NCBI GenBank assembly: GCA_903901045.1
Contig: CAIUPP010000026.1
Coordinates: 1 to 64,000 of the forward strand
DNA from: an uncultured Planctomycetota bacterium
Lineage (GTDB): Bacteria; Planctomycetota; Brocadiia; CAIUPP01
Reading direction: 5' to 3'
DNA length: 64,000 nucleotides
A program made the translations under genes and the position numbers. Positions 250 through 21,465 of this stretch are shown here, piece by piece. How positions within the stretch are numbered: the stretch's first letter is position 1; each line of letters begins with the position of its first letter. The notes beneath the pieces were generated by a model. It made no database searches, was not told the origin of the DNA, and saw nothing but the letters and a program-made list of their open reading frames with translations.

Positions 250-2151
250 ATGGAGAATCAACCCGTCTCTTCCAAAGCGCGCCGCTGGATCGTCAGGGGG
301 GTGGTGCTGTTCGCCCTGCTGATGTTCTCCTGCCTGGGGTACTTCGTCATCTATCGGAACTGGCAGAATACGGAGTGCGAAGCGCAGTACGCCAAGGCCG
401 AGGCTCTTGCGAAGGGGGGGGATGCCGAGCAGGGACTGGCCGAGTACCGCGCCATCGCGGAACGCATGCCCGGCAGGCCGCTCGGGTTGCGCGCCGCAAG
501 CGAGGCGGAGCGGCTCGCCCCGTACGTCGCCTCCGCGCTGGCGCTCAAGCAGAAGGCGGACGCTCTCCTGCGCCAGTCCGAATTCGAGAAGGCCATTCCG
601 GTCTACCAGGATGTGCAGAAACAATTCCCGCTCAGCCGCATGGCCGCCGTGAGCAAAGAAGAGGAGGCGGTCTGCCGCGGCCTGGTCTGCAAGACCGGCC
701 TGGGCCTGGCTCAGAAAGCCGCCTCCGAAAAGCGCTGGCGCGACGTGCTCGGTTTCGCTCAGAAGATGGAGGAGATCGATCCGAGTTTCACCGCTGCGAA
801 GGAAGCGCGCCGCGACGCGCAGTCGCACGTGGACGCGTTCGACGCCTTGATGAAGCAGGCGAAGGCCGCCGCAGGGGCGGGGGACTGGCCCGGCTCCCGC
901 GCTTTCTGTGAGCAGGCGCTGGTCATCATGCCCTCCGACCCCGCCGCGTTCGATGGGCGCGTTGCCGCGATCAGGAACGGCCCCTGTCCCGCGGGGATGG
1001 TGCTGATCCTCCCCGGCTCGTTCACCGTCGGCTCGGCGGAGAGCGACGCCTCCGGCAATTCCGTGCGCGCGCTGGAAAGCCCCGGCTTCTACCTGGATGC
1101 CGCGGAAGTGACCAACGAGCAATACGCCCGTTTCATCGCTGCCGCCAAGCACAAGAGGCCGCCGCAATGGACGGGGAGCGAACTCACGCCCGAGCGGGCC
1201 AAACTGCCGGTCTGCTGCGTCTCATGGAACGACGCCGCCGCTTACGCCGCCTGGGCGGGAAAGCGACTGCCGACGGAAGTGGAATGGGAGCGCGCGGCGC
1301 GCGGCCGCACGGGGCGCATTTACCCCTGGGGGAACGAGTGCACCGGCGCGGAGGCGGTCTTCTCGCGCGGGCCCGCCCCGGCGGGGAGCGTGGCGTCGGA
1401 CCGCACCGAGGAAGGCTGCATGGACCTGGGAGGGAACCTCGCCGAGTGGGTCGCCTTCGAACAGGAGCCGCCTCCCTCGGACAAGGATACCGGCGCGTCG
1501 GTCGTTCCGCGTCCGATCCGCGGCGCCTCATGGGCCGGGGTCGAGACGGGCCGCCCGCAGCGCATCGCGCCGGAGTGCGTCGCCGACAAGCAGTCGAACC
1601 CCGCGCACGTCATCCTCACCGACTCGCCGGGCGTCTTCCTGGAGATACAGGCCCCGGTCGAGGAGGAGTTCTTCTTCAAGGGCATGTCGAGCGAGGTGGC
1701 GGTCTTCGAGCTTCGCAAATGGTTTCCGGAGTACGGGCGCGTGGTGAGTTGCAGCGTGCTGATCAAGGAAGGGCAGGCGATTGCCGGCTCGCGCACGATT
1801 CCCTCCGGCGCCTCCCCGGCGAGCCCCGCCGTCAAGGTGACGCTGGACAGCGGCTGCCGGCTGCTGCGCGTGACGTATGCGGAGAACCAGCGCCCGCGCG
1901 TGGTCTATGCCGATCGCTCCGGGCAGGAGCACGAAATGGCCATTAGCGAACATCCGGAACTGACTCCCCCTCGGAATATGGGACCGGATAGTCCCGCCGC
2001 GCAGCACGGCGCAGGTTCGTTCGGCCAGTTGCTGCGCACGCTCATGGCGGAGCCGCTGTCGGTGGCCGCCCGCGCGTCGAACCGCCGCACCGCGCCGGGG
2101 GATATGCTCTTCTGCAACGTCGGGTTCCGGTGCGCGAAGGACCTGCCGTGA
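250..2151 (+). CDS. Membrane-anchored FGE-sulfatase (formylglycine-generating-enzyme-like) domain protein
   Basis: 633 residues. One N-terminal membrane segment (about residues 15-38) is followed by a helical, TPR-like region (about 40-245). Then comes a formylglycine-generating-enzyme/SUMF1-type domain starting at PAGMVLILPGSF, with VTNEQYARF, LPTEVEWERAARG, YPWGNE, MDLGGNLAEW, RPIRGASW and a final VGFRCA. Proteins of this fold oxidise a sulfatase cysteine or have lost that activity and act as binding domains; no sulfatase gene is nearby. Odd feature: about 170 residues (roughly 430-600) sit between RPIRGASW and the terminal GFR motif, which are normally close together. ATG at 250 is the first in-frame start after the membrane-segment codons. 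The gene converges on the amidohydrolase, with 15 nt between stops. The fold is secure; catalytic function is unknown. Confidence 0.85.
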   Translation: MENQPVSSKARRWIVRGVVLFALLMFSCLGYFVIYRNWQNTECEAQYAKAEALAKGGDAEQGLAEYRAIAERMPGRPLGLRAASEAERLAPYVASALALKQKADALLRQSEFEKAIPVYQDVQKQFPLSRMAAVSKEEEAVCRGLVCKTGLGLAQKAASEKRWRDVLGFAQKMEEIDPSFTAAKEARRDAQSHVDAFDALMKQAKAAAGAGDWPGSRAFCEQALVIMPSDPAAFDGRVAAIRNGPCPAGMVLILPGSFTVGSAESDASGNSVRALESPGFYLDAAEVTNEQYARFIAAAKHKRPPQWTGSELTPERAKLPVCCVSWNDAAAYAAWAGKRLPTEVEWERAARGRTGRIYPWGNECTGAEAVFSRGPAPAGSVASDRTEEGCMDLGGNLAEWVAFEQEPPPSDKDTGASVVPRPIRGASWAGVETGRPQRIAPECVADKQSNPAHVILTDSPGVFLEIQAPVEEEFFFKGMSSEVAVFELRKWFPEYGRVVSCSVLIKEGQAIAGSRTIPSGASPASPAVKVTLDSGCRLLRVTYAENQRPRVVYADRSGQEHEMAISEHPELTPPRNMGPDSPAAQHGAGSFGQLLRTLMAEPLSVAARASNRRTAPGDMLFCNVGFRCAKDLP

Positions 2152-4408: not shown

Positions 4409-4437
4409 TTGACTCGCCCGCCAACCTGGGCTGAAAT
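4409..4437 (+). promoter_or_regulatory. Candidate promoter for the Cys-rich peptide / radical SAM operon
   Basis: TTGACT (4409-4414), 17-bp spacer, TGAAAT (4432-4437). The predicted leader of about 160 nt contains a perfect 6-bp stem-loop at 4456-4470. Confidence 0.5.
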
Positions 4438-4606
4438 GAATTGAAATAGTCTGCGTCAACCTATGGTTGAAAGGAGGTGGAGCCGGGGGGATGCCGTTGG
4501 CTGCGTCTGTCACTGTTCTGAACCGATTTGCCGCCGTTGGGCAGGCGGGGAGCGCCGGCGTTGGGGCCGCGCGCTTTGAAAGCCTCTGGTGACTGAAAGG
4601 AAAGAC

Positions 4607-4810
4607 ATGAAGAAGCGCATGCTGAAGAAGACTCTCGCGGGCGTGAGCATTGCGGGCCTGGTTCTGACCGGCGCGCTGGGCATGGGCGGCTGCAAGAGCA
4701 GTTGCGGCGGCTCCTGCAAGGGCGGTTCCTGCAAGGGAAGTTCCTCCTGCACGGGGAGCTCGCAGTCGCAGCCCAAGACGGATGATTCCAAGAGCACGAT
4801 GCAGAAGTGA
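4607..4810 (+). CDS. Cys-rich small peptide, candidate RiPP precursor of the SbtA (selenobiotic) type
   Basis: 67 residues from ATG 4607, which has AAGGAA 5 nt upstream; a GTG at 4589 would add six residues and has no ribosome site. Residues 1-28 look like a lipoprotein-style hydrophobic leader (MKKRMLKKTLAGVSIAGLVL...) ending GMGGC. The rest is a Gly/Ser/Lys core with five cysteines at 29, 33, 37, 42 and 48, then a Ser/Gln/Lys tail. A leader with KKxLAGxSIAGL, a lipobox-like GC and a Gly/Ser/Cys core is what I recall for precursors acted on by SbtM-type radical SAM maturases, some of which carry selenocysteine. No in-frame TGA lies inside this one. The next gene is a radical SAM/SPASM protein 65 bp downstream. 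The alternative reading is a simple small lipoprotein. Confidence 0.75.
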   Translation: MKKRMLKKTLAGVSIAGLVLTGALGMGGCKSSCGGSCKGGSCKGSSSCTGSSQSQPKTDDSKSTMQK

Positions 4811-4824
4811 TCCGGCTCTCGACG

Positions 4825-4855
4825 CGGGACGGCTCGGCCTAGCCGGGCCGTCCCG
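4825..4855 (+). terminator. Strong hairpin between peptide and maturase genes
   Basis: CGGGACGGC pairs perfectly with GCCGTCCCG, with an inner CGGC-cta-GCCG stem. No T-run follows, so partial termination or mRNA stabilisation is more likely than full termination. Such hairpins commonly set a high precursor-to-maturase ratio. Confidence 0.6.
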
Positions 4856-4875
4856 AGGTCGTTTCTGGAGGCGCA

Positions 4876-6429
4876 TTGAACCTGAACGAAATCTACCCGA
4901 CGTGCCGCGCTCTCCTGGATTCGGGAGAATGGCGGCGCGCGAGCGCGGCTCTGGCGAAGGAGACCGGCCCCGAGGGGGTGGCCGGCATACCGGAGTTGCC
5001 GGAATTCCTCCCCGATCTGGCGAGGTTGGAATGGACGATGCACCGCGTCGCGACGGAGGCCGCGCCGTTCGGCGAGGTGGTTGCGCTGGAGGCCAACCCC
5101 ACCCTGGAGGCGCTGCACCTTTCATGGAAACTCTGCGCGACGGTCGCCTCGCGCGGGAAAGTTCCGCCGGAGCGCGGCGAAGAATGGGCGCTCGTCTGGC
5201 GTGACCCCGTGACCGGCGAAACTTCCCTGTCCGCCGCCACCGGCGACGACCTGCTGGCGATCAAGGTGGTGGTGGAGGATATCCCGTATGCGCAGGCGGC
5301 CGTCGCGGGGCGCATCCCCACGGCGGCGGTGGACATGGCCGTTCGCCGCGCCGCGGCGCGGGGGCTGCTGCTGGCCCCGCCATCGCGCATCCGCCGCGAC
5401 ACGGCGTTGCTCCCGCAGGGGAAGCGCACGCCGGAGGAGTTCGTCGCCGCGCGCAGCTTCGTCTTGCAATGGCACATCACCCACGCCTGCGATCTGCACT
5501 GCCGGCACTGTTACGACCGCAGCAACCGCGCCGCCGTGACCGTGGAGCAGGCCCGGCGGGTGCTCGACCAGTTGGGCGATTTCTGCGCCAGGCGCGGCGT
5601 GGCCGGGCATGTCTGCCTCACCGGCGGCAACCCGCTGCTGCACCCCGGCTTTCTCGATATCTACCGCGAGTCGGCGCAGCGCGGTTTCACCCTTTCCATC
5701 CTCGGAAACGCCGCGCCGCGCGAACGGGTCGAGCCGCTTTGCGGCATCCTCCGCCCCGACATGTACCAGGTGAGTCTGGAGGGGCTGCGCGAGCACAACG
5801 ACCATATTCGCGGCGCGGGGTACTTCGACCGCGTGATGCTCTTTCTGGACGTGCTGCGCGAGTTGGGAATCCCGTCCGCCGTGATGCTCACCCTGACTCG
5901 CGACAACCTCGACCAGGTCCTCCCGCTGGCGGAACTGCTGCGCGGCAAGACGGACTTCTTCACGTACAACCGGCTCTCCCCGGTGGGGGAGGGGGCGGCG
6001 CTGCAACTTCCCTCGCGGGAGGAATATGCCGGCTTTGTGCAGCAGTACGTGGAGGCGGCGCAGAAGAACCCGATCATGGGTTACAAGGACAACTTGATCG
6101 GCATCGAGCTGCGGCGGCGGGGGCTGGAGCCGTTCGGGGGGTGCTGCGGCTTCGGCTGCGGGGCGGGGTTCAACTTCCTGGCGCTGCTGCCCGACGGCGA
6201 GGCGCATGCCTGCCGCAAGTTCCCCTCCCCCATCGGCAACGTGCTGACGCAGGGGATCGCTGCGGTGTACGACGGCGAGGAGGCGGCGCGCTATCGCGCC
6301 GGGGCGGCCGCCTGCGCCGCGTGCGACCTGCGCGCCGTCTGCGGCGGATGCCTCGCGATCACGCGCGGCCACGGACTCGACCCCTTCCGCGACCGCGACC
6401 CGCATTGTTCCCTGGTCGGGACGGCGTGA
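4876..6429 (+). CDS. Radical SAM/SPASM peptide maturase, probably SbtM-like
   Basis: 517 residues. The N-terminal 190 residues are a helical region without a recognised motif. Then comes a radical SAM core: WHITHACDLHCRHCYD, with the 4Fe-4S ligands Cys205, Cys209 and Cys212, then the SAM-contact LTGGNP and a TIM-barrel body. The C-terminal part is cysteine-rich (GGCCGFGCGAG, ACRKF, CAACDLRAVCGGC, PHC), as expected for a SPASM/twitch domain binding auxiliary clusters. These enzymes modify ribosomal peptides by thioether, oxazole/thiazole or related chemistry. TTG 4876 is the preferred start, with GGAGG 5 nt upstream. Its partner is very likely the Cys-rich peptide just upstream. The radical SAM call is secure; the SbtM assignment rests on context and recall of the family. 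Confidence 0.85.
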   Translation: MNLNEIYPTCRALLDSGEWRRASAALAKETGPEGVAGIPELPEFLPDLARLEWTMHRVATEAAPFGEVVALEANPTLEALHLSWKLCATVASRGKVPPERGEEWALVWRDPVTGETSLSAATGDDLLAIKVVVEDIPYAQAAVAGRIPTAAVDMAVRRAAARGLLLAPPSRIRRDTALLPQGKRTPEEFVAARSFVLQWHITHACDLHCRHCYDRSNRAAVTVEQARRVLDQLGDFCARRGVAGHVCLTGGNPLLHPGFLDIYRESAQRGFTLSILGNAAPRERVEPLCGILRPDMYQVSLEGLREHNDHIRGAGYFDRVMLFLDVLRELGIPSAVMLTLTRDNLDQVLPLAELLRGKTDFFTYNRLSPVGEGAALQLPSREEYAGFVQQYVEAAQKNPIMGYKDNLIGIELRRRGLEPFGGCCGFGCGAGFNFLALLPDGEAHACRKFPSPIGNVLTQGIAAVYDGEEAARYRAGAAACAACDLRAVCGGCLAITRGHGLDPFRDRDPHCSLVGTA

Positions 6430-6550
6430 AGGGGACGCCCGCAGCGGCTTTCACCACGGCTGAAGTGGCATTGCTTCTTTTGCCTTTGGCCCGCCGCCCC
6501 GTGTAAAATCACACCCAGTGTGGGCGCTGAAAGCGAGAGAGTCCTCGACT

Positions 6551-8791
6551 ATGTCCCCGAACGTTGTGACCACTACGGAAAAAATGCGCCGCCTGCCCTG
6601 GTTCGTCACCATGCAGGCGTTCAACAGCATTTTCTGTTACCTCACGGTCTTCGGGCCGCTGTTCGTGTTGTTCCTGGGGGAGATGGGGCTGCCCAAGGGG
6701 CGGATCGGTTTCCTGACCGCTCTCTTCCCATTCTGCGGACTGCTGGCGCTGTTCGTCGCTCCGATGACCGAACGGATGGGGGTCAAGCGCGCTTTCCTCA
6801 CCTTCTATGCTTTGCGGAAATTCATCACCGCGTTGCTCCTGTTCACCCCCCTGGTCCTCGCCACGTACGACCTGAATACGGCGTTCTATTATGTCGCGGT
6901 CGTGATCGCATTGTTCGCGGTCTGCCGCTCCATCGCCGAGACGGCCTTCTGCCCGTGGAGCCAGGAGTTCATCCCGGACACGGTGCGCGGCAAGTACAAC
7001 GCCACCGTCAGTATCATTGCCACCCTCGCCACGGGTGCGGCGATCGTGGGCGCCAGCTTCTACATGGCGCGCAAGTCGGGACTGAGCGCGTACATGGGGC
7101 CGATGGCGGTCGGCGTGTTATTCGGATTCATCGGGGTGGCTGCCGGTTGCATGGTGCCCGGCGGGGCGCCGGTCGCGCGCAGTGAATCGCACTGGAACTT
7201 CCTGCGGCGCATGTTCGGCGCCTTCCGCGACCGCAAGTTCCGCCTCTACCTTGTCGGCATCGCGCTGGTGAGCCTCGGCTGGGCGGCGACCGCCAGTTTC
7301 CTTCCGCTGTACCTGCGCGAGCAGGTGGGACTCTCCTCCGGCATGGTGTTCATGCTGACCAACGGCGCGCTGCTGGGGACGCTGCTGTCCAGCTACGCCT
7401 GGGGCTGGGCGGCGGACCGTTACGGCAGCAAGCCGGTGATGCTCACCTCGGTGAACCTGCTGCTCCTGCTGCCGATCTGCTGGTGGCTGCTGCCGCGCGG
7501 CGGCGCGTTCACCATCCCACTCATCCTGTTCTTCAACGGGGTCAGCGGCGCGGCGCTGACCGGATGGGGAATTGCCTCCGACCGCCACCTGTACGTGGAC
7601 GTGGTGCCGCCGGAGAAGAAGATGCACTACCTGGCGCTGTTCTATGCCTACAGCGGCGTGGTGGGGGGGATCGGCCCGCTGGCGGCGGGCTATGCGCTGG
7701 AGCATTTCAGCCACCTCAGCGGGAACTTCGGCCCGGCGCGCCTGGATCAGTACACGCCGCTCTTTGCGGCCGGTTTCCTTCTGCTGCTGGCGGGGTTCCT
7801 GGTGCTCAGCCGCACGCGCGCGGGGGGAAGCATGCCCTCGGGGCGGTTCGTCGGGATGTTCCTCCAGGGGAATCCCTTCATGGCGCTGGAGTCCATGGTG
7901 CGCTACAACTTTGCGGGGGATGAGGACTCGCGCGTCTCGGTCGCGGAGCGGCTGGGGGAGGCGCGCAGCCCGCTCAACGTCAACGAGTTGATCGAAGCGC
8001 TGTCCGACCCCAGCTTCAACGTCCGGTATGAGGCGGTGATCTCCATGGCGCGCACCCGCAACGACCGGCGTTTCGTCCACGCTCTGGCGGGTGTGGTACA
8101 CGGGGGGGAACCGGAACTGGCCGCTGCCGCCGCCTGGGCGCTGGGGCGCATGGGGAACCGGGCCGCCATTCCTGCGTTGCGCCGCGGCCTGCAAGCGGAG
8201 ACGCCGCTGTTGCGGGCGCGTTGCGCGCGGGCGCTGGGGATGCTGGAGGATGCCGATTCCATCCCCGCGATCATGCAGTTGTTCCGCCTCGAACGGAACA
8301 GCGGCATTCGCATGGCCTACGCTTCGGCTCTGGGGGTGCTGCGCGCGCGTGAGACCGTGCCGGAACTGCTCGATTTCCTGCGCAGCCTCGATGCGCCGAT
8401 GCAGCGAATGGAACTGGCGCTGGCCGCCGCGCAGATGGTGGGGGATGAGGAGTACTTCGTCCGCCTTCAGCGCGACGCGGCCCTCAGCCCCGGCATGGTG
8501 TACAACCAGGCGCTGGAGGTGATCCGGCGCAAGATCATCCGCCATTCCTGGGCGGAAGGGGCTTCGGAGGCGCTGGGGAAAGTGGCCGACATCATGGCCC
8601 AGGAGCAGGTCGAGAAGGGGGCCCGCGTGCTGGCGGAGGTAATTGGCGATCTGCAACTTTCCGCCGTCGCGCCCGCGCGCGCCTCCGTCCTGCGCGAATG
8701 CATCGAGATGCTGCGCCTCGCGCCTCAGCGGCGGGAATACATCTTCCTCGCCCTCCACGCTCTCGACGCGGCGGCGGAGGAGGAGGAATGA
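6551..8791 (+). CDS. MFS transporter fused to a C-terminal HEAT-repeat domain
   Basis: 746 residues from ATG 6551. Residues about 10-430 form a 12-segment major facilitator fold, with cytoplasmic-loop motifs such as APMTERMGVKRAF and AADRYGSKPV after segments 2 and 8. From about residue 474 to 625, degenerate HEAT/PBS-lyase-type repeats follow (VNELIEALSDPSFNVRYEAV, PELAAAAAWALGRMGNRAAI, LLRARCARALGMLEDADSI, IRMAYASALGVLRARETV), then a helical tail. HEAT repeats usually bind proteins, so the tail may be a cytoplasmic regulatory platform. An upstream GTG at 6518 is in frame but would sit at the probable transcript start. It follows the radical SAM gene by 120 bp; a role in exporting the modified peptide is possible but unproven. 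Confidence 0.85.
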   Translation: MSPNVVTTTEKMRRLPWFVTMQAFNSIFCYLTVFGPLFVLFLGEMGLPKGRIGFLTALFPFCGLLALFVAPMTERMGVKRAFLTFYALRKFITALLLFTPLVLATYDLNTAFYYVAVVIALFAVCRSIAETAFCPWSQEFIPDTVRGKYNATVSIIATLATGAAIVGASFYMARKSGLSAYMGPMAVGVLFGFIGVAAGCMVPGGAPVARSESHWNFLRRMFGAFRDRKFRLYLVGIALVSLGWAATASFLPLYLREQVGLSSGMVFMLTNGALLGTLLSSYAWGWAADRYGSKPVMLTSVNLLLLLPICWWLLPRGGAFTIPLILFFNGVSGAALTGWGIASDRHLYVDVVPPEKKMHYLALFYAYSGVVGGIGPLAAGYALEHFSHLSGNFGPARLDQYTPLFAAGFLLLLAGFLVLSRTRAGGSMPSGRFVGMFLQGNPFMALESMVRYNFAGDEDSRVSVAERLGEARSPLNVNELIEALSDPSFNVRYEAVISMARTRNDRRFVHALAGVVHGGEPELAAAAAWALGRMGNRAAIPALRRGLQAETPLLRARCARALGMLEDADSIPAIMQLFRLERNSGIRMAYASALGVLRARETVPELLDFLRSLDAPMQRMELALAAAQMVGDEEYFVRLQRDAALSPGMVYNQALEVIRRKIIRHSWAEGASEALGKVADIMAQEQVEKGARVLAEVIGDLQLSAVAPARASVLRECIEMLRLAPQRREYIFLALHALDAAAEEEE

Positions 8792-8801
8792 GTGCAGAGC
8801 G

Positions 8802-8827
8802 CAGAATTCAGAATGAAGAATTCAGAA
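8802..8827. repeat. Degenerate GAATTCAGAA repeat
   Basis: GAATTCAGAA occurs twice in 26 bp, separated by TGAA, in the gap before hisA. It belongs to the same general class of low-complexity intergenic repeats seen across the window. Confidence 0.6.
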
Positions 8828-9651: not shown

Positions 9652-11325
9652 CTACCGTAATTCCATGATAATCTTCGCCAGCTTGTTCGGGTCATGCCGC
9701 AGCAGATCCTGCTTTTCCCAGAGGACGCGCTGCTGGTCGAGGTCCTCCACGAGATCCTCCTCGATGATCTGTGGCCCCAGGGTGCGCAGTTCGGGGGTGG
9801 CCAGGACCAGTTGCGCGCCGGATTCCTCGTACCTGCCCAGCATCTCCTTGGGAGGGAGATGGTTGTTCACCAGCACGTAATCCAGCACGCCATCCCCCAG
9901 GTATTTCTGCACCGCGCGGACATGGTCGGCGGCGGTGTAGCCGTCGGTCTGGCCCGGCTGCGTGACGATGTTGCAGATGTAGACCACGCGCGCGTTCGAG
10001 GTGCGTATGGCGCGCGCGATGCCGCGCACCAGCAGGTTCGTGATGACGCTGGTGTACAGGCTCCCCGGCCCGATGACGATGGTGTCGGCGCGCTCGATCT
10101 CCTGCAACGCCTCCTCGGTCGCGCTGGCGGTCTCCGGTTCGAGGAAGAGGTGCTCGATGGGGGCCTTGTTCAGGCCGCGCACGTTGACCTCCTGCCGGAC
10201 GATGGTCCCGTCGGTCAGCACGGCGCAGACGTGGCAGTCGCTCAGGGTGCTGGCGATCACCTTCCCCTGAATTGCGAGAATCTCGCTGGCGGCGCGCAGG
10301 GCGGACTCGAATGATCCGGTGATCTTGGTCAGCGCGGCCAGGAAGAGATTGCCGAAACTCACCCCCGTCAGATCGCCATCCTCGAAGCGGTACTGAAACA
10401 ACTCATGGAGCTGGCGGCCGGTCTTCTCGCTGCTGGAGAGGGCGACCAGGCAGTTGCGCGCATCGCCGGGGGCGGGCATGCCCAGGTCGCGGCGCAGCTT
10501 GCCGGAGTGCCGGCCCGAATCGGTGACGGTGACGATGGCGGTGAGGTTGCGCGTGAACGCCTTGAGCCCCTGGAGCACCATGGGCAGGCCGGTGCCCCCG
10601 CCGATGGCCAGCACGCGCGCCTGCTCGCGGTGGCGCTGCTTGTTGGCGGATGCCAGCACCTCGCAGAGCTCGCCGATGCGCGCGATCTTGTACCCCGGCT
10701 CCTCGAACTCATCCTTCGGTTGCAGGCTGGCGTACCGCCCGTGCTGCATCTGGACGGTGGTCATGCGCAGGTAGTTGGCCACGCGGATTTCCGCGTCGAT
10801 GCGGTCTCCCACCACCATGCACTCCTGCGGCGTCAGGCCGTGGCGCGTCATCAGCTCGATGTAGCAGTCATCCAGGTCGGTGCCGATCTCCGAATCGTTG
10901 ATGAGCGTCTCGTCGAAATAGGAGGCCAGGCCGAGCATCTGGATCTTGCGTTCCTGGCGGAGGTGGACGCCGTTGGTGACCAGGAACAGAAGGTACCCCT
11001 GCGCGCGCAGGTTGCGCAGCAGGCTGACGGCATCCGGGAAGGGCTGGATGGTCTCGACTTCATCCTGGTTGTACGCCTTCATCGCGGCGGCGACGATCTC
11101 CTTGCCCATGCCGTAGCGCTCGGCGATGTCGTCGAACACCTTGTAACGCGGGCCGTAGCGCGCGTTCAACTGCACCTGGAGGTCGTAGATTTCTTCTTCG
11201 GAGCAGGGGAGGCCGCTGGCGATCATCGCCTTGGCGGCGCGGCGGCGCGCGGCGTCCACCAGGGAGCCGGAGCAATCGTAGAGCGTGTCGTCGAGGTCGA
11301 AGATAACCGCTTTGATTCGAGCCAT
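9652..11325 (-). CDS. HAD hydrolase fused to YvcK/CofD-like gluconeogenesis factor
   Basis: 557 residues with two complete domains. Residues 1-225 are a HAD-superfamily phosphatase: DLDDTLYD with nucleophile Asp10 and acid Asp12, the LVTNG motif II and GDRIDAEI motif IV. Residues 236-557 are a YvcK/CofD-like protein: IGGGTGLP (241-248), TVTDSGRHSGKLRRDL, PGDARNCLVAL, IVIGPGSLYTSVITNLLV and NIVTQPGQTDGYTA. YvcK is normally a stand-alone UDP-sugar-binding factor affecting cell wall and carbon metabolism. Fusion to a phosphatase suggests that the phosphatase acts on a related sugar phosphate, but that is inference. It is last in a likely three-gene operon read from the promoter at 12423-12451. 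Confidence 0.9.
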   Translation of the reverse strand: MARIKAVIFDLDDTLYDCSGSLVDAARRRAAKAMIASGLPCSEEEIYDLQVQLNARYGPRYKVFDDIAERYGMGKEIVAAAMKAYNQDEVETIQPFPDAVSLLRNLRAQGYLLFLVTNGVHLRQERKIQMLGLASYFDETLINDSEIGTDLDDCYIELMTRHGLTPQECMVVGDRIDAEIRVANYLRMTTVQMQHGRYASLQPKDEFEEPGYKIARIGELCEVLASANKQRHREQARVLAIGGGTGLPMVLQGLKAFTRNLTAIVTVTDSGRHSGKLRRDLGMPAPGDARNCLVALSSSEKTGRQLHELFQYRFEDGDLTGVSFGNLFLAALTKITGSFESALRAASEILAIQGKVIASTLSDCHVCAVLTDGTIVRQEVNVRGLNKAPIEHLFLEPETASATEEALQEIERADTIVIGPGSLYTSVITNLLVRGIARAIRTSNARVVYICNIVTQPGQTDGYTAADHVRAVQKYLGDGVLDYVLVNNHLPPKEMLGRYEESGAQLVLATPELRTLGPQIIEEDLVEDLDQQRVLWEKQDLLRHDPNKLAKIIMELR

Positions 11326-15111: not shown

Positions 15112-15201
15112 CAAATTGAAGCATAGAGCATCGCGAGAGAACCGTTACGCTGCGTGAGGCCGTTCCTCCGGGCGTGACGGAAACTCTTGTGGAGAAACAA
15201 G

Positions 15202-16935
15202 ATGGCGGAAAAGAAGCAGCGTACCCTGGGCCAGGTGCTGGTTGAGAAGGGGATCATCACCGAGGAACAACTGGCCCAGGCTCGGCAACTGCTGGGCGAC
15301 AAGCCGGAGATGAAAATCGGTGACGTACTCGTCCAAACGCAGGCGGCCACTTGGGACCAGGTGTACGAGGCGCTGGCGGAGTTGCTCGGCTACCGATTCG
15401 TTGACCTGAGAAACACCCACGTTCCCGCCGAGGCGATCGAAGCGATGCCCAAGAGCATCGCGCGCAAGCATCGCCTGGTGCCCATCGGCGAGGAGGATGG
15501 CGTACTGATTGTGGCCATCACCGACCCGTTCGACCTCTACGCGATGGACAACCTGCGCTTCTACCTCGGGCGCGAGGTGCGCTGCGTCCTGGCCGCCCCC
15601 GACGCGGTCGAAGAGGCGATCAACAAGTATTACGGCATCGAGGAATCCACCGTCGACAACATGCTCGCGGAGTTCACCGAGAGCGACCTGGGTCTGGCCG
15701 CCGCAGCCGAGCAGGTCGAGGATGACAGCGAAGACTCCGCCATGATCCGCCTCGTCCAGTTGCTCATCACCGAAGCGGTGAAGATGCGCGCCAGCGACAT
15801 TCACATCGAGCCGATGAAGAACAAGCTGCGCGTGCGGTACCGCGTGGACGGCAACTGCCAGGAGATGGACAGCCCTCCCAAGAAACTCCAGGGGCCGATC
15901 ATCTCGCGCGTGAAGATTCTGGCCGGCATCGACATCGCCGAGAAGCGGCGGCCGACGGACGGGCGCATCTCCATGCGCGTCGCGACCAGTTCCTTCGATA
16001 TTCGCGTCAGCGCGCTGCCGGCCACCCACGGCGAGTCCGTCGTCATGCGCCTGCTCATGAAGGAGTCCGTGCTGATCAACCTTCAGGAGCTGGGGTTCTA
16101 CGAGACCGACTACCGCCGGTTCGAGGGCATCATCAAGCGCCCCAACGGCATCTTCCTGGTCACCGGGCCGACCGGGTCGGGCAAGACCACCACGCTGTAC
16201 GCGGCACTGCACGAATTGAACCGCCCCGACAAGAAGATCATCACCGCCGAGAACCCCGTGGAGTACAACCTCTCCGGCATCAACCAGTGCGAGGTGCGCG
16301 AGCGCATCGGCGTCACGTTCGCCCTGATCCTGCGCGCCATGCTGCGCCAGGCCCCCAACATCATCCTCGTCGGCGAAATCCGCGACGCCGAGACCGCGCA
16401 GATCGCCATCGAGGCCGCGCTCACGGGCCACTTGGTGTTCAGCACCCTGCACACCAACGACGCCCCCTCGACCATCGCGCGCCTCATCGACATGGGGATC
16501 AAGCCGTTCCTGGTCGCCTCCTCCGTGCAGGCGATCATGGCGCAGCGCCTCGTGCGCCGCATTTGCAGCGGCTGCAAGGCGCCGCACGTGTACGAGAAGC
16601 GCGAACTGGCCTCCATCGGCATCAAGCCCGAGGATATCAAGAACGTCACCCTCTACAAGGGGGCCGGTTGCCAGCGCTGCCGCGGCAAGGGCTATCGCGG
16701 GCGCGTGGCCGTATTCGAGTTGATGGAACTGGACAATCACCTGCGCGAGATGGCGTTCCGGCGCGACACCGTCACGGAGATCCGCAAGTATGCGCGCAGC
16801 GCCGGCATGGCTAGCCTGCGCGACGACGGCGTGCGCAAGATCATCGCCGGCGTCACCACCATCCCGGAAGTGCTGGAAATCACGGCCAAGGAGTACGACG
16901 AAAGCGAGTCCACCGCCGCCTCGGCGGGCGCTTGA
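15202..16935 (+). CDS. pilB: Type IV pilus / type II secretion assembly ATPase PilB/GspE (first copy)
   Basis: 577 residues. The N-terminal MshEN-like T2SSE_N domain (TLGQVLVEKGIITEEQL, about residues 7-70, plus a second half) can bind cyclic di-GMP in relatives; here the motif is degenerate. The C-terminal ATPase has Walker A GPTGSGKTTTLYAAL, an Asp-box region, Walker B ILVGEIRDAETAQIA and a His-box TLHTNDAPSTIARL. A four-cysteine zinc module (ICSGCK and GCQRCRGKGY) is present. ATG 15202 has GGAG 8 nt upstream; a GTG at 15187 would add five residues. First gene after the strong promoter. These hexameric cytoplasmic ATPases power pilus extension or secretion. Confidence 0.93.
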   Translation: MAEKKQRTLGQVLVEKGIITEEQLAQARQLLGDKPEMKIGDVLVQTQAATWDQVYEALAELLGYRFVDLRNTHVPAEAIEAMPKSIARKHRLVPIGEEDGVLIVAITDPFDLYAMDNLRFYLGREVRCVLAAPDAVEEAINKYYGIEESTVDNMLAEFTESDLGLAAAAEQVEDDSEDSAMIRLVQLLITEAVKMRASDIHIEPMKNKLRVRYRVDGNCQEMDSPPKKLQGPIISRVKILAGIDIAEKRRPTDGRISMRVATSSFDIRVSALPATHGESVVMRLLMKESVLINLQELGFYETDYRRFEGIIKRPNGIFLVTGPTGSGKTTTLYAALHELNRPDKKIITAENPVEYNLSGINQCEVRERIGVTFALILRAMLRQAPNIILVGEIRDAETAQIAIEAALTGHLVFSTLHTNDAPSTIARLIDMGIKPFLVASSVQAIMAQRLVRRICSGCKAPHVYEKRELASIGIKPEDIKNVTLYKGAGCQRCRGKGYRGRVAVFELMELDNHLREMAFRRDTVTEIRKYARSAGMASLRDDGVRKIIAGVTTIPEVLEITAKEYDESESTAASAGA

Positions 16936-16963
16936 CGCATTGGAATAGGAGATCGCACGGAAG

Positions 16964-18121
16964 ATGCAGATCAACAAACTCTTGCAGACAGTCGTGAACC
17001 AGAAAGCCTCCGACATCATCCTCACCGTCGGTTGCAAGCCGATGCTGCGCCTCCATGGACGCCTGGTGCCCCTCCAGACCAAAGTGCTCGAAGCCGAGGA
17101 CACCGTCACCCTGATGAAGAGCATCACCTCCGAGCGCGGCCAGCAGGAGCTGCAGGAGGTGGGGGGGACGGACTTCGGGTTCAGCTTCGGCGACCAGGCC
17201 CGCTTCCGCGTCGCCGTCTTCAAGCAGCGCGGGTACATCGGGGTGGTGCTTCGTTTCATCCCGAACAAGCTGCTCAGTTTCGACGAGATCGGCTTGAGCG
17301 AGACCATCAAGAAACTGCTCTGGCGTCCGCGCGGCCTCTTCCTCGTCACCGGCCCCACCGGCTCGGGCAAGAGCACCACCCTGGCCACCATGATCGACTA
17401 CATCAACCAGAGCCGGGACTGCCACATCATCACCATCGAAGACCCGATCGAGTACTACCATCCGCACAAGCGCTGCGTCGTCACGCAGCGTGAACTGGGG
17501 GTGGACGTTCCCAGCTTCGCCGAAGGGCTGCGCCGCGCACTGCGCCAGAACCCGGACGTGATTCTGGTCGGAGAAATGCGCGACCTGGAGACCATCGAAA
17601 CCGCCATTTCCGCCGCCGAGACAGGGCACCTCGTCTTCGCCACCCTCCACACCAACAGCGCCGAGGGAACGATCAACCGCATTGTGGACGCCTTCCCCCA
17701 GCAGCAGCAGGAGCAGGTGCGCATCCAGTTGGCCACCAACATGATCGCCGTGCTTTGTCAGGCGCTGCTGCCGGACACCACGGGCAAGAACCGCGTCGCC
17801 GCCTTCGAGATCATGGTCCAGACCCCGGCCATCAGCAACCTCATCCGCACCACCAAGGTGTACCAGATCGCCTCCGAAATTCAGACCGGCTCCAAGCACG
17901 GCATGATCCTGCTGGACGACTCGCTGGCGATCCTGTTCCACAAGGGGAAGATCACCGAGGAAGAAGCGATGAACCGTTGCCGCAGCCCCGTGGACATGGA
18001 GCAGAAGCTGCGCATGCCGCCGCGCATGTTCCTGGGGGATACTCCCGGGGCCGCGGGTGGCGAGGGAGACAAGGGACGCAAGCCGGCGATTCAGATTGAT
18101 ACGGCGCGCAAGTCGGAGTGA
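16964..18121 (+). CDS. pilT: Pilus retraction ATPase PilT
   Basis: 385 residues. PilT-type hexameric ATPase: ASDIILTVGCKPMLRLHG at the N-terminus, Walker A GPTGSGKSTTLATMIDYIN, ITIEDPIEY Asp box, Walker B ILVGEMRDLETIETAI, ATLHTNSAEGTINRIVD His box, and AFEIMVQTPAISNLIR (the AIRNLIR-like retraction motif). It lacks the N-terminal MshEN domain and zinc cysteines of PilB. The C-terminal 40 residues are an extra Lys/Gly-rich tail. It sits between two pilB copies in the same operon. PilT identity argues that at least part of this machine is a retractable pilus and not purely a T2SS. Confidence 0.92.
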   Translation: MQINKLLQTVVNQKASDIILTVGCKPMLRLHGRLVPLQTKVLEAEDTVTLMKSITSERGQQELQEVGGTDFGFSFGDQARFRVAVFKQRGYIGVVLRFIPNKLLSFDEIGLSETIKKLLWRPRGLFLVTGPTGSGKSTTLATMIDYINQSRDCHIITIEDPIEYYHPHKRCVVTQRELGVDVPSFAEGLRRALRQNPDVILVGEMRDLETIETAISAAETGHLVFATLHTNSAEGTINRIVDAFPQQQQEQVRIQLATNMIAVLCQALLPDTTGKNRVAAFEIMVQTPAISNLIRTTKVYQIASEIQTGSKHGMILLDDSLAILFHKGKITEEEAMNRCRSPVDMEQKLRMPPRMFLGDTPGAAGGEGDKGRKPAIQIDTARKSE

Positions 18122-18156
18122 CCGTTTCGGACGTGTGAAAGGAAGAGACCACAGGG

Positions 18157-20154
18157 ATGGCTCAGGAACCGAAAAAGAAGGCGGCGCCCCCCGCGCCCGC
18201 CCCGGCAACACCGGCGGCGAAGGCGGCTCCCGCGGTGACGGCGGCGAAGGTGTCGGCCGCCGCCCCGGCCGCAAAGGGGGCGGCCGCAGCGTCCGCCGCC
18301 AAGCCGCCAGCCGCTGCGCCTGCCGCGAAGGCGACCGCCGCTGCAACCCCCGCGAAGGGGGCAGCCGCTGCGCCCGCCGCGCCGGTGGAACCCGCCGGCA
18401 TCGGTCCGGGCACCTTCGGCGAAGTGCCCGAGACGCCCCCGCAGGCCGAGCGTAAGCCGATCGGCCAGATCCTCAAGGAAATGCGCCTCGTCACCGAGAG
18501 CCAGATTCAGGAAGCGCTGGCCATCCAGAAGCAGTCCGGCGGCGCGCTCGGGACGATCCTGGTCAGCCTCAACTACGTCACCGAACAGGAAGTGCTCACG
18601 GCCCTGGGCATCCAGGCCGGCATGGACGTGGTCGATCTGGACACGATGGACATCCCGGAAGATGTGATCGCGCGGGTCTCTCCCTCCATTGCGCAGGTCT
18701 ACCACATCATCCCCACGAAGTACGAAAACGGCGTCCTGACCGTGGCGATGGCCGACTCGCTGAACATCAAGACGCTGGATGACCTGCGCTTCCTGCTGGA
18801 CGTGGAGGCGCGCGGCGCCGTCAGCAACGACGCCGCGGTCAGCCGCGCGCTGGAGCGGTACTATGCCGGCGTGCAGGAGTCCGTCGAGAGCCTGCTGGCC
18901 GAGCTGGATGACGGCACGATGGCGGATATCGTCAACACCGCCAGCGAGTCCATCGACCTGCAGACCCTTGAGGAAATGGCCGACGCCGCGCCGGTCCGCA
19001 AACTGCTCAACTATGTGCTGCTGGTAGCCATTCGCGACAAGGCCTCCGACATTCACTTCGAGCCGTTCGAGGAAGAATTCAAGATCCGTTACCGCATCGA
19101 CGGCGTGCTTTATGAAATGGTGCCCCCGCCGAAGCAACTGGCGCTGGCCATCGCCTCGCGCATCAAGGTCATGGCGGACCTGGACATCGCCGAGCGCCGC
19201 ATGCCGCAGGACGGACGCGTCGAGCTCAACATCAGCGGCAACCCGGTCGACCTGCGCGTCAGCATCCTGCCCACCATGTTCGGCGAGAGCTGCGTGCTGC
19301 GCGTGCTCGACCGCTCGGTCGTCCAGCTTGACCTGCGCCGCCTGGGGCTGCGCGATGACGAACTCATCGCCTTCGACCACCTGCTCCAACTGCCCAACGG
19401 CATTATCGTGGTCACCGGCCCGACCGGCTGCGGCAAGACCACCACCCTGTACGCCGCCCTCAATACCGTCAACACGATCGACGTCAAGATCATCACCACC
19501 GAAGACCCCGTCGAGTACGACCTGGAAGGGGTGGTGCAGGTGCAGATCAACTCCGAAATCGGGCTGACCTTCGCCGCCTGCCTGCGCAGCATCCTGCGGC
19601 AGGACCCCGACAAGATCCTCGTCGGCGAAATCCGCGACGTGGAAACCGCCCAGATCGCCGTGCAGGCCAGCCTGACGGGGCACGTGGTGTTGAGCACCCT
19701 CCACACCAACGACGCCCCGAGCACCGTCACGCGCCTCATCGATATGGGGCTGGAGCCTTACCTGATCACCGCCACGCTGGAGGCGGTGGTGGCGCAGCGG
19801 CTCGTGCGCCGCATCTGCTCGCGCTGCAAGAAGGAATTCACCCCGACCGAGGACATGCTTCTCGAACTGAACCTGCGCCCCGCCGACGTGCGCGGCAAGC
19901 GCTTCTTCTATGGCCCGGGCTGCGACACCTGCAACAACACCGGGTACAAGGGGCGCATGGCGATTTTCGAAATTCTCTCGCTGGATGACGAAATCCGCGA
20001 GATCGTCATGAGCCAGGGCTCGACCCAGGCGATTCGCGAAGTCGGCTCCCGGCGCGGGATGCGCTCGCTGCGCGAAAGCGGCCTGCTGGCCATCTACGAC
20101 GGGGATACGACCATCGAGGAAGTCGTCCGAGAGACGATCCTTACCGGACAATGA
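18157..20154 (+). CDS. Type IV pilus / type II secretion assembly ATPase PilB/GspE (second copy)
   Basis: 665 residues. The first 75 or so are a low-complexity Ala/Pro/Lys stretch (repeats of APAAKG/AAAAP), unlike the first copy. Then an MshEN-like domain (PIGQILKEMRLVTESQIQEA), the ATPase core with Walker A GPTGCGKTTTLYAAL, TTEDPVEYD, Walker B ILVGEIRDVETAQIA and TLHTNDAPSTVTRL, and a zinc module (ICSRCK and GCDTCNNTGYKG). The two copies share domain order but not the linker, so they probably serve two assembly systems or states. Start ATG 18157; AAGGAAG lies upstream. Confidence 0.92.
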   Translation: MAQEPKKKAAPPAPAPATPAAKAAPAVTAAKVSAAAPAAKGAAAASAAKPPAAAPAAKATAAATPAKGAAAAPAAPVEPAGIGPGTFGEVPETPPQAERKPIGQILKEMRLVTESQIQEALAIQKQSGGALGTILVSLNYVTEQEVLTALGIQAGMDVVDLDTMDIPEDVIARVSPSIAQVYHIIPTKYENGVLTVAMADSLNIKTLDDLRFLLDVEARGAVSNDAAVSRALERYYAGVQESVESLLAELDDGTMADIVNTASESIDLQTLEEMADAAPVRKLLNYVLLVAIRDKASDIHFEPFEEEFKIRYRIDGVLYEMVPPPKQLALAIASRIKVMADLDIAERRMPQDGRVELNISGNPVDLRVSILPTMFGESCVLRVLDRSVVQLDLRRLGLRDDELIAFDHLLQLPNGIIVVTGPTGCGKTTTLYAALNTVNTIDVKIITTEDPVEYDLEGVVQVQINSEIGLTFAACLRSILRQDPDKILVGEIRDVETAQIAVQASLTGHVVLSTLHTNDAPSTVTRLIDMGLEPYLITATLEAVVAQRLVRRICSRCKKEFTPTEDMLLELNLRPADVRGKRFFYGPGCDTCNNTGYKGRMAIFEILSLDDEIREIVMSQGSTQAIREVGSRRGMRSLRESGLLAIYDGDTTIEEVVRETILTGQ

Positions 20155-20229
20155 CACGGGATGTTCCGCCGCGCGGCGGAGGAGATTGGCGCCGGCCTGC
20201 CTGACGGCACGCTGGAGGAGGGTGAGACA

Positions 20230-21465
20230 ATGGCGACCTACCGATTTGAGGCGATGAACGCGCAGGGCCAGTCGGTCCGCAACGAGATCGAGGCCGGCTC
20301 CGAAGAGGAGGCGATCCAGAAGATCCGCGCGCAGAAGCTCTTCCCCACCAGCATCAAGGAGAAGGTCGGCAAGCACGGCACGACGGCCGGGGCCGGGCCC
20401 AAGGCGCGCAAGAAGACGATGGCGTTCGGCGGCGTCAGCAACAAGGCGCTGACGCTGTTCACCCGGCAGCTCTCCACGCTTCAGGACGCCGGCCTGCCCA
20501 TCGTGCGCAGCTTGAAGATTCTGGAAGGGCAGCAGAAGCCCGGCACCTTGAAGAACACCCTCATCAGCGTCAGCGACGACGTCGAAGGTGGCATGACCTT
20601 CAGCGAGGCGCTGAGCAAGCACCCCAAGGTGTTCGACAAGCTGTACGTGAACATGGTGCGCGCCGGGGAGGTGGGCGGTATTCTGGACTCCATTCTCCAG
20701 CGCCTCGCGGACTTCCGCGAAAAGGCCCAGCGTCTGAAGAAACAGATCATCGGCGCCATGATCTACCCCGCCGCGGTCATCACGGTGGCCGGCGGCATCC
20801 TCGCGGGCATCATGATCGGCATCGTGCCGAAGTTCAAGAAGATGTTCGAGGAACTGGACGTCACCCTGCCCACCATGACCCTCATCCTCATCTCGGCGAG
20901 CAACTTCATCGCGAACAAGTACTACTGGGGGCTGGCCTTCATCGCCGGCGTCATTGTGGTGATCAAGGCGATTACCGCAACCTCCGGCGGGCGCTTCATC
21001 GTGGATAAGCTGAAGCTGAAAGTGCCCCTGTTCGGCAACATCATCAACAAGGCGGTCATCGCGCGCTTCACGCGCACGCTGGGCACGCTGGTGGCGGCGG
21101 GCGTGCCGATTCTGGAGGCGCTGAACATCACCAAGGACACCTCCGGCAACATGGTCGTGGCGCGCGCCATCGGGCACGTCCACGACAGCATTCGCGAGGG
21201 AGAAAGCATCGCCGAACCCCTCGCCCAGAGCAAGATATGCGACGACATGGTGGTCAACATGGTGGACGTCGGCGAGGAAACCGGCGACTTGGACAAGATG
21301 CTCCTGAAGATCGCCGACCAGTACGACGAAGATGTGGACGTGGCGGTCGCGAGCATGACCAGCTTGATCGAGCCCATGATGATCATCTTCCTGGGAGGCG
21401 CGGTCGGCTTCATCGTCATCTCCCTGTTCCTCCCGCTCATTAAGCTGATGAACAGCATTGGATGA
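20230..21465 (+). CDS. pilC: Inner-membrane platform protein PilC/GspF
   Basis: 411 residues from ATG 20230, preceded by GGAGGAGGG. Two tandem GspF/T2SSF domains: LTLFTRQLSTLQDAGLPIVRSLK with LYVNMVRAGEVGG in the first half, and FTRTLGTLVAAGVPILEALN with MVVNMVDVGEETGDLDKML in the second. Each is followed by hydrophobic segments (VITVAGGILAGIMIGIVPKF; MMIIFLGGAVGFIVISLFLP). It forms the membrane platform that couples the PilB/PilT motors to pilin assembly. The reading frame is open upstream to 20161, but that extension has no family match. Confidence 0.93.
   Translation: MATYRFEAMNAQGQSVRNEIEAGSEEEAIQKIRAQKLFPTSIKEKVGKHGTTAGAGPKARKKTMAFGGVSNKALTLFTRQLSTLQDAGLPIVRSLKILEGQQKPGTLKNTLISVSDDVEGGMTFSEALSKHPKVFDKLYVNMVRAGEVGGILDSILQRLADFREKAQRLKKQIIGAMIYPAAVITVAGGILAGIMIGIVPKFKKMFEELDVTLPTMTLILISASNFIANKYYWGLAFIAGVIVVIKAITATSGGRFIVDKLKLKVPLFGNIINKAVIARFTRTLGTLVAAGVPILEALNITKDTSGNMVVARAIGHVHDSIREGESIAEPLAQSKICDDMVVNMVDVGEETGDLDKMLLKIADQYDEDVDVAVASMTSLIEPMMIIFLGGAVGFIVISLFLPLIKLMNSIG

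Follow-up and report, generated by a model that had tools for sequence, protein, structure and literature searches.

What do a gene for a 67-residue, cysteine-rich peptide and the radical SAM enzyme gene behind it produce together, and where in the cell would that product act? The two genes lie on the same strand of the window, by which we mean the whole 64,000-nucleotide stretch analysed here, from a 154-contig assembly that is 94.1% complete. They comprise 67 codons (4607-4810) and 517 codons (4876-6429), each has a good ribosome-binding site, and the 65-base gap between them contains a strong hairpin. The explanation that we favour, as reasonably probable, is that the two genes form a thiooxazole RiPP locus with an exported product, which may buffer a soft metal in an anoxic envelope. 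The features of the locus are as follows.

4595-4603 (+): ribosome-binding site of the precursor gene, AAAGGAAAG (sequence)
4607-4810 (+): SbtA-type precursor peptide, 67 aa, ATG start, TGA stop included (TIGR04081 and leader profile)
4607-4690 (+): leader, residues 1-28, MKKRMLKKTLAGVSIAGLVLTGALGMGG, which probably doubles as a lipoprotein-type Sec signal peptide (charged n-region, uncharged h-region of 20 residues; 34 of 35 lipobox-type SbtAs have Gly at -1)
4691-4693 (+): Cys29, the +1 residue of the lipobox MGGC and predicted to be lipidated (homologous position in lipobox-type SbtAs)
4694-4765 (+): core, residues 30-53, with Cys33, Cys37, Cys42 and Cys48 in Ser/Gly context, predicted thiooxazole sites (family core motif)
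4825-4855 (+): intergenic hairpin, 14 pairs (-47.5 kcal/mol, z -3.65)
4867-4871 (+): sbtM ribosome-binding site, GGAGG (sequence)
4876-6429 (+): SbtM, thio(seleno)oxazole radical SAM maturase, 517 aa, TTG start (TIGR04082)
4876-5400 (+): SbtM N-terminal PME1-like module, residues 1-175, a helical DUF2063-like part plus an RRE fold
5488-5511 (+): radical SAM [4Fe-4S] cluster motif CxxxCxxC, C205, C209 and C212 (invariant in 20 SbtMs; PF04055)
6142-6408 (+): SPASM domain, eight invariant Cys from C423 to C511, auxiliary Fe-S clusters (PF13186 and alignment)

Judged by its sequence, the enzyme is SbtM. It matches TIGR04082 with 677.3 bits (cut-off 350) over model positions 1-516 of 516, and this was the best model in a profile search against RiPP maturase families, bearing out the SbtA/SbtM family named in the original prediction. 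PF04055 (E 4.2e-17) and the SPASM model PF13186 (28.1 bits) are both over their cut-offs. The C205-C209-C212 triad and the Cys-rich C-terminus had been placed correctly; in an alignment of 20 homologues, eight further cysteines are invariant (C423, C428, C446, C480, C483, C489, C492 and C511). The gene is single-copy in its genome. An AlphaFold model of the whole enzyme (pLDDT 85.9) is closest to SuiB, SkfB, ChlB and CteB (Z 23 to 25) and, because these structures are peptide maturases, SbtM groups with the peptide-modifying SPASM enzymes, as had been proposed. SuiB, SkfB and CteB share with it the radical SAM and SPASM fold and an N-terminal leader-binding module, but these sactipeptide and ranthipeptide maturases carry out cross-linking chemistry rather than thiooxazole formation and lie far below TIGR04082 on sequence models. 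PapB (59.7 bits, cut-off 340) and StsB (55.6 bits, cut-off 625) both fall far short, and no SCIFF maturase model appears among the best 25 of 68. With TIGR04082 as the best family model and no SCIFF model among those 25, the enzyme is not placed with the sactipeptide or ranthipeptide maturases. In vitro, another SbtM removes four hydrogens per Cys or Sec and forms a thiooxazole (Lewis et al. 2021, as relayed in PMC11002830). Given that account, calling the product unknown was too strong for the chemistry; the phrase stands for the biological role, since the literature found assigns a chemistry to the SbtA/SbtM product and gives it no role.

The peptide, by leader profile and position, is an SbtA-type precursor. 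It scores 25.3 bits (E 9.2e-6) on positions 1-25 of 27 of the SbtA leader model TIGR04081, about 5 bits under the cut-off of 30.5, and for this reason we do not file it under that model; a leader profile built from 18 homologues finds it with E 1.4e-9. A peptide adjoining an SbtM at another locus (L041) is likewise under the TIGR04081 cut-off, at 28.9. The leader resemblance noted at the outset is therefore real, yet below threshold, in a peptide that occupies the SbtA position. A leader-profile search across 78 SbtM loci returned 77 SbtA-like peptides at 65 of them, with the precursor adjoining the enzyme at most, and all 77 start with a charged segment followed by a KKxLAGxxxAGL-like hydrophobic stretch. 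This co-occurrence bears on the idea that SbtM works on another substrate and leaves the window peptide unmodified, as a metallothionein-like lipoprotein. A small Cys-rich lipoprotein could indeed bind metal unmodified, but we regard this account as very improbable, both because SbtA-like leaders accompany SbtM so regularly and because SbtM carries an RRE-containing module of the kind that binds precursor leaders in homologous systems.

Across the family, the core motif is S/G-[C/U]-G/S, with G or S preceding 212 of the 223 Cys or Sec positions and following 192 of them, and the window core fits this pattern with four cysteines flanked by Ser/Gly. The core had been described as Cys-only, and there is no in-frame TGA ahead of the stop; Cys-only cores also occur at four further SbtM loci (L033, L036, L041 and L042). 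Because SelB and tRNA-Sec are present in the window's genome, on one contig, the Cys-only core is a choice of the peptide and not a consequence of missing machinery. Compared with the SbtA/SbtM system (TIGR04081/TIGR04082; Lewis et al. 2021, Biochemistry 60:3347), the window locus has the same enzyme family and domain order, precursor-then-maturase gene order, leader pattern and Ser/Gly-Cys core, and differs in its Cys-only core and its sub-threshold precursor. It is a genuine member of that system. The strong hairpin reported between the two genes is also there, none of 200 shuffled sequences being equally stable. It lacks a T-run and is not called a terminator; how much peptide is made per enzyme may depend on it. 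No Rfam elements were found within the window.

How SbtM would recognize this leader is suggested by a match obtained in the first survey, where a gene of genome G092 hit TIGR04082 only at positions 1-173. The product of that gene (L122:2327-3055) is a DUF2063 protein (PF09836, 44.6 bits), and the gene immediately before it codes for an MNIO (PF05114, 329.6 bits); by its sequence the protein is a PME1, the MNIO partner protein. Residues 6-168 of the window SbtM are 38% identical to it (BLASTP, E 3e-18). With E values from 2e-11 to 7e-40, a profile of the SbtM N-terminus retrieves PME1s in seven further genomes of the phylum to which the window belongs, and an MNIO gene adjoins PME1 in every one of these loci. 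Distant Buf2-type PME1s also align to SbtM N-termini (hhalign, 96.9%, E 2e-10). A structure search with the whole enzyme did not reveal the N-terminal fold, so the module was folded separately (AlphaFold, pLDDT 92); its best structure is then gonococcal PME1 (3DEE, Z 12.4, 160 residues), followed by TglI in the TglHI complex (Z 11.4, 168 residues), with stand-alone RRE domains of other RiPP enzymes at Z 6 to 7.6. SbtM residues 1-175 received no score on PF09836 in Pfam, and PDB sequences gave no useful match to the N-terminal profile; the link is therefore drawn from three kinds of comparison: direct alignment of sequences, profile against profile, and structure. On this evidence, residues 1-175 are almost certainly homologous to PME1 (DUF2063 plus RRE), with the PME1-like module in SbtM fused to the enzyme. 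In a tree, which is unrooted, a single branch with support 100/99 separates SbtM N-termini from PME1s. The module is missing from four shorter SbtMs (L050 and L106-L108). The enzymes of L106, L107 and L108, from Nitrospirota-phylum genomes, have 354-409 aa and no recognisable SbtA nearby.

The leaders themselves look like ordinary Sec signal peptides, as called by sequence pattern. An apparent lipobox ends the leader in 35 of the 77 SbtAs, and most of the others have AxA-like signal peptidase I sites, so that nearly all of the leaders carry one ending or the other. Besides the Gly at -1, the lipobox type has its Cys at position 27-30 in 34 of 35 peptides and at 23 in the remaining one. Sec is encoded elsewhere in 27 of the 35, and here the lipobox residue is Cys whereas the later positions are Sec (in-frame TGA) in 65 of 67 cases. 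Fisher's test on the lipobox (p 1e-21) is not independent because the class is partly defined by a Cys at that position; as a description of the class, a Cys kept at the lipobox beside a Sec core is what lipidation of the Cys thiol would demand. Eleven loci encode two SbtAs, one of the lipobox type and one of the signal peptidase I type (L065, L066, L084, L088, L090, L092, L093, L097, L101, L110 and L112), so that one SbtM apparently supplies peptides to two places in the cell.

A different reading is that the leader is a recognition sequence with a chance likeness to signal peptides, and that the peptide, once modified, remains cytoplasmic. The KKxLAGxxxAGL pattern is conserved beyond the needs of a generic signal peptide, as this reading would have it. 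However, the two leader endings match two signal peptidases, and the retention of Cys at the lipobox in those 27 Sec-encoding peptides also speaks against it. Moreover, the signal peptide of bufferins, which are products of MNIO systems, is suspected to share in recognition (PMC12452194), and roles in recognition and export are therefore compatible. We consider cytoplasmic retention improbable and continue with export. In the window peptide, the lipobox MGGC29 is less canonical than in most relatives. Cys29 would be lipidated, judging from the family pattern, leaving Cys33, Cys37, Cys42 and Cys48 for modification. The five cysteines originally listed (29, 33, 37, 42 and 48) are all correctly positioned and the lipoprotein-like leader holds up, but family comparison assigns Cys29 to the lipobox and reduces the five core cysteines to four.

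These features recall the MNIO systems. Most MNIO precursors have Sec signal peptides, some of them lipoprotein-type, and thiooxazole bufferins sequester copper in the periplasm (PMC12452194). Captophorins are copper-binding thiooxazole peptides (PMC12668002), and their authors point out that the SbtM-modified peptide has the same 305 nm absorbance (PMC13097082). Bufferin and captophorin loci (MNIO PF05114, PME1 and a Cys-rich precursor) thus resemble SbtA/SbtM in a homologous recognition module, a Sec or lipoprotein signal-peptide leader, a repeated Ser/Gly/Lys-Cys-Gly core and a reported 5-thiooxazole product group. They differ in that the SbtM oxidase is a radical SAM enzyme, not an MNIO, which uses O2, and has the recognition module fused to it; copper binding is reported for bufferins and captophorins, whereas for SbtA it would be an extension by analogy. 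Where the PME1 of an MNIO locus is SbtM-like, the encoded precursors have a lipobox and repeats of SCGGKDG, SSCSGDK or KSCGGDK (L122, L139, L143 and L144), and related precursors are found at L141 and L142. Because the MNIO-linked precursors give no match to TIGR04081, their homology to SbtA is suggested by design only.

The window precursor fits, by pattern, the signal peptide and repeated Cys that mark captophorins and bufferins. Membership of the locus in that group is nevertheless rejected because the window's genome (G000) has no MNIO (PF05114) at E 1e-10, although the locus may work like one. An MNIO occurs in 1 of 79 SbtM genomes; against a background of just 5 of 223 in one phylum, mutual exclusion of MNIO and SbtM is not significant. 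The one genome with both is a Verrucomicrobiota member (L050:5968-11106), where a short SbtM without the N-terminal module lies 3.3 kb from an MNIO (10249-11106, minus strand) and a membrane-anchored SCGSSCG-repeat protein is encoded at 8613-8816 (minus strand). Separately, the MNIO and PME1 loci whose PME1 is unusually near to SbtM N-termini (L122:1141-3058, L138-L144 and L150), with lipobox SCGG/SSCSGDK-repeat precursors, appear to form a bufferin-like group of the window's phylum that has received little description.

Taken step by step, the mechanism that we propose begins with binding of the SbtA leader by the PME1-like (DUF2063 plus RRE) module of SbtM, as its homology would predict. The radical SAM/SPASM part would then oxidise Cys33, Cys37, Cys42 and Cys48 by four electrons each to 5-thiooxazoles, which is very likely in view of the reaction described for another SbtM. 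The leader would next be read as a Sec signal peptide, with Cys29 lipidated, the leader cut and the peptide anchored in a membrane of the cell envelope, a step that we think likely. Finally, the row of thiooxazoles could, where oxygen is absent, bind and buffer a soft metal such as copper in the way that the MNIO-made bufferins and captophorins do; this role is argued by analogy, has about an even chance of being right and is the weakest step of the mechanism. The locus may thus be an oxygen-free counterpart of MNIO copper-peptide chemistry. We give an even chance to the broader proposal that radical SAM SbtM and O2-dependent MNIO are non-homologous oxidases which replaced one another while the recognition module and the type of precursor, exported and with Cys repeats, stayed the same, with SbtA/SbtM as the anoxic, lipid-anchored and often selenium-containing branch of the copper-binding thiooxazole metallophores.

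The neighbourhood and distribution of SbtM bear on what the exported product might do. No conserved transporter, peptidase or immunity gene was found among 84 neighbouring proteins at 22 SbtM loci, and no metal-responsive gene adjoins the window locus. The absence of conserved neighbours fits export by housekeeping Sec and lipoprotein machinery, for which no dedicated exporter or protease is needed. Among 147 related genomes, only that of the window encodes an SbtM over the TIGR04082 cut-off, while 39 of 395 and 20 of 245 genomes do so in two other phyla; named carriers are Desulfobacterota-like, Nitrospirota, KSB1, Omnitrophota, Acidobacteria, Lentisphaerae and other MAGs. This patchiness suggests horizontal transfer. 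It is also accessory-trait-like and, together with the frequent bioactivity of RiPPs, would suit a thio(seleno)oxazole natural product, secreted or displayed on the surface, that acts on other cells or as a signal and buffers no metal. We think such a product unlikely, since no exporter, protease or immunity gene recurs beside SbtM and the lipobox in half of SbtAs would keep the peptide on its producer.

Three findings behind the favoured reading, namely a module shared with PME1, a leader of signal-peptide type and MNIO-linked precursors of similar make-up, combine into a specific hypothesis, metal buffering in the envelope without oxygen, and the same comparison predicts which Cys is lipidated and which are modified. 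If true, anaerobes and selenium would come within the range of thiooxazole metallophores, and enzymes of two unrelated classes would converge on one product via the same docking domain. The comparison of 78 SbtM loci adds the signal-peptide type of SbtA leaders and the homology of SbtM to PME1; no mention of the shared module or of the SbtA lipobox was found in the MNIO and captophorin literature, the original description of SbtM, which may note the domain, lying outside that search. The link between SbtM and PME1 is probably surprising to RiPP specialists and is directly testable.

Elsewhere in the window, an MFS transporter with C-terminal HEAT repeats (PF07690, PF13646) is encoded directly behind sbtM at 6518-8791 (+), a gene not recurrent among the neighbours of the 22 SbtM loci. 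By eye, the gene at 250-2151 (+) appears to encode an N-terminal TM/repeat region and a formylglycine-generating-enzyme-type domain. Genes of type IV pilus type, also recognized by eye, occupy 15187-21465 (+), with PilB-like ATPases at 15187-16935 and 18157-20154, a PilT-like ATPase at 16964-18121 and a PilC-like protein at 20161-21465, followed by pseudopilin-like proteins.
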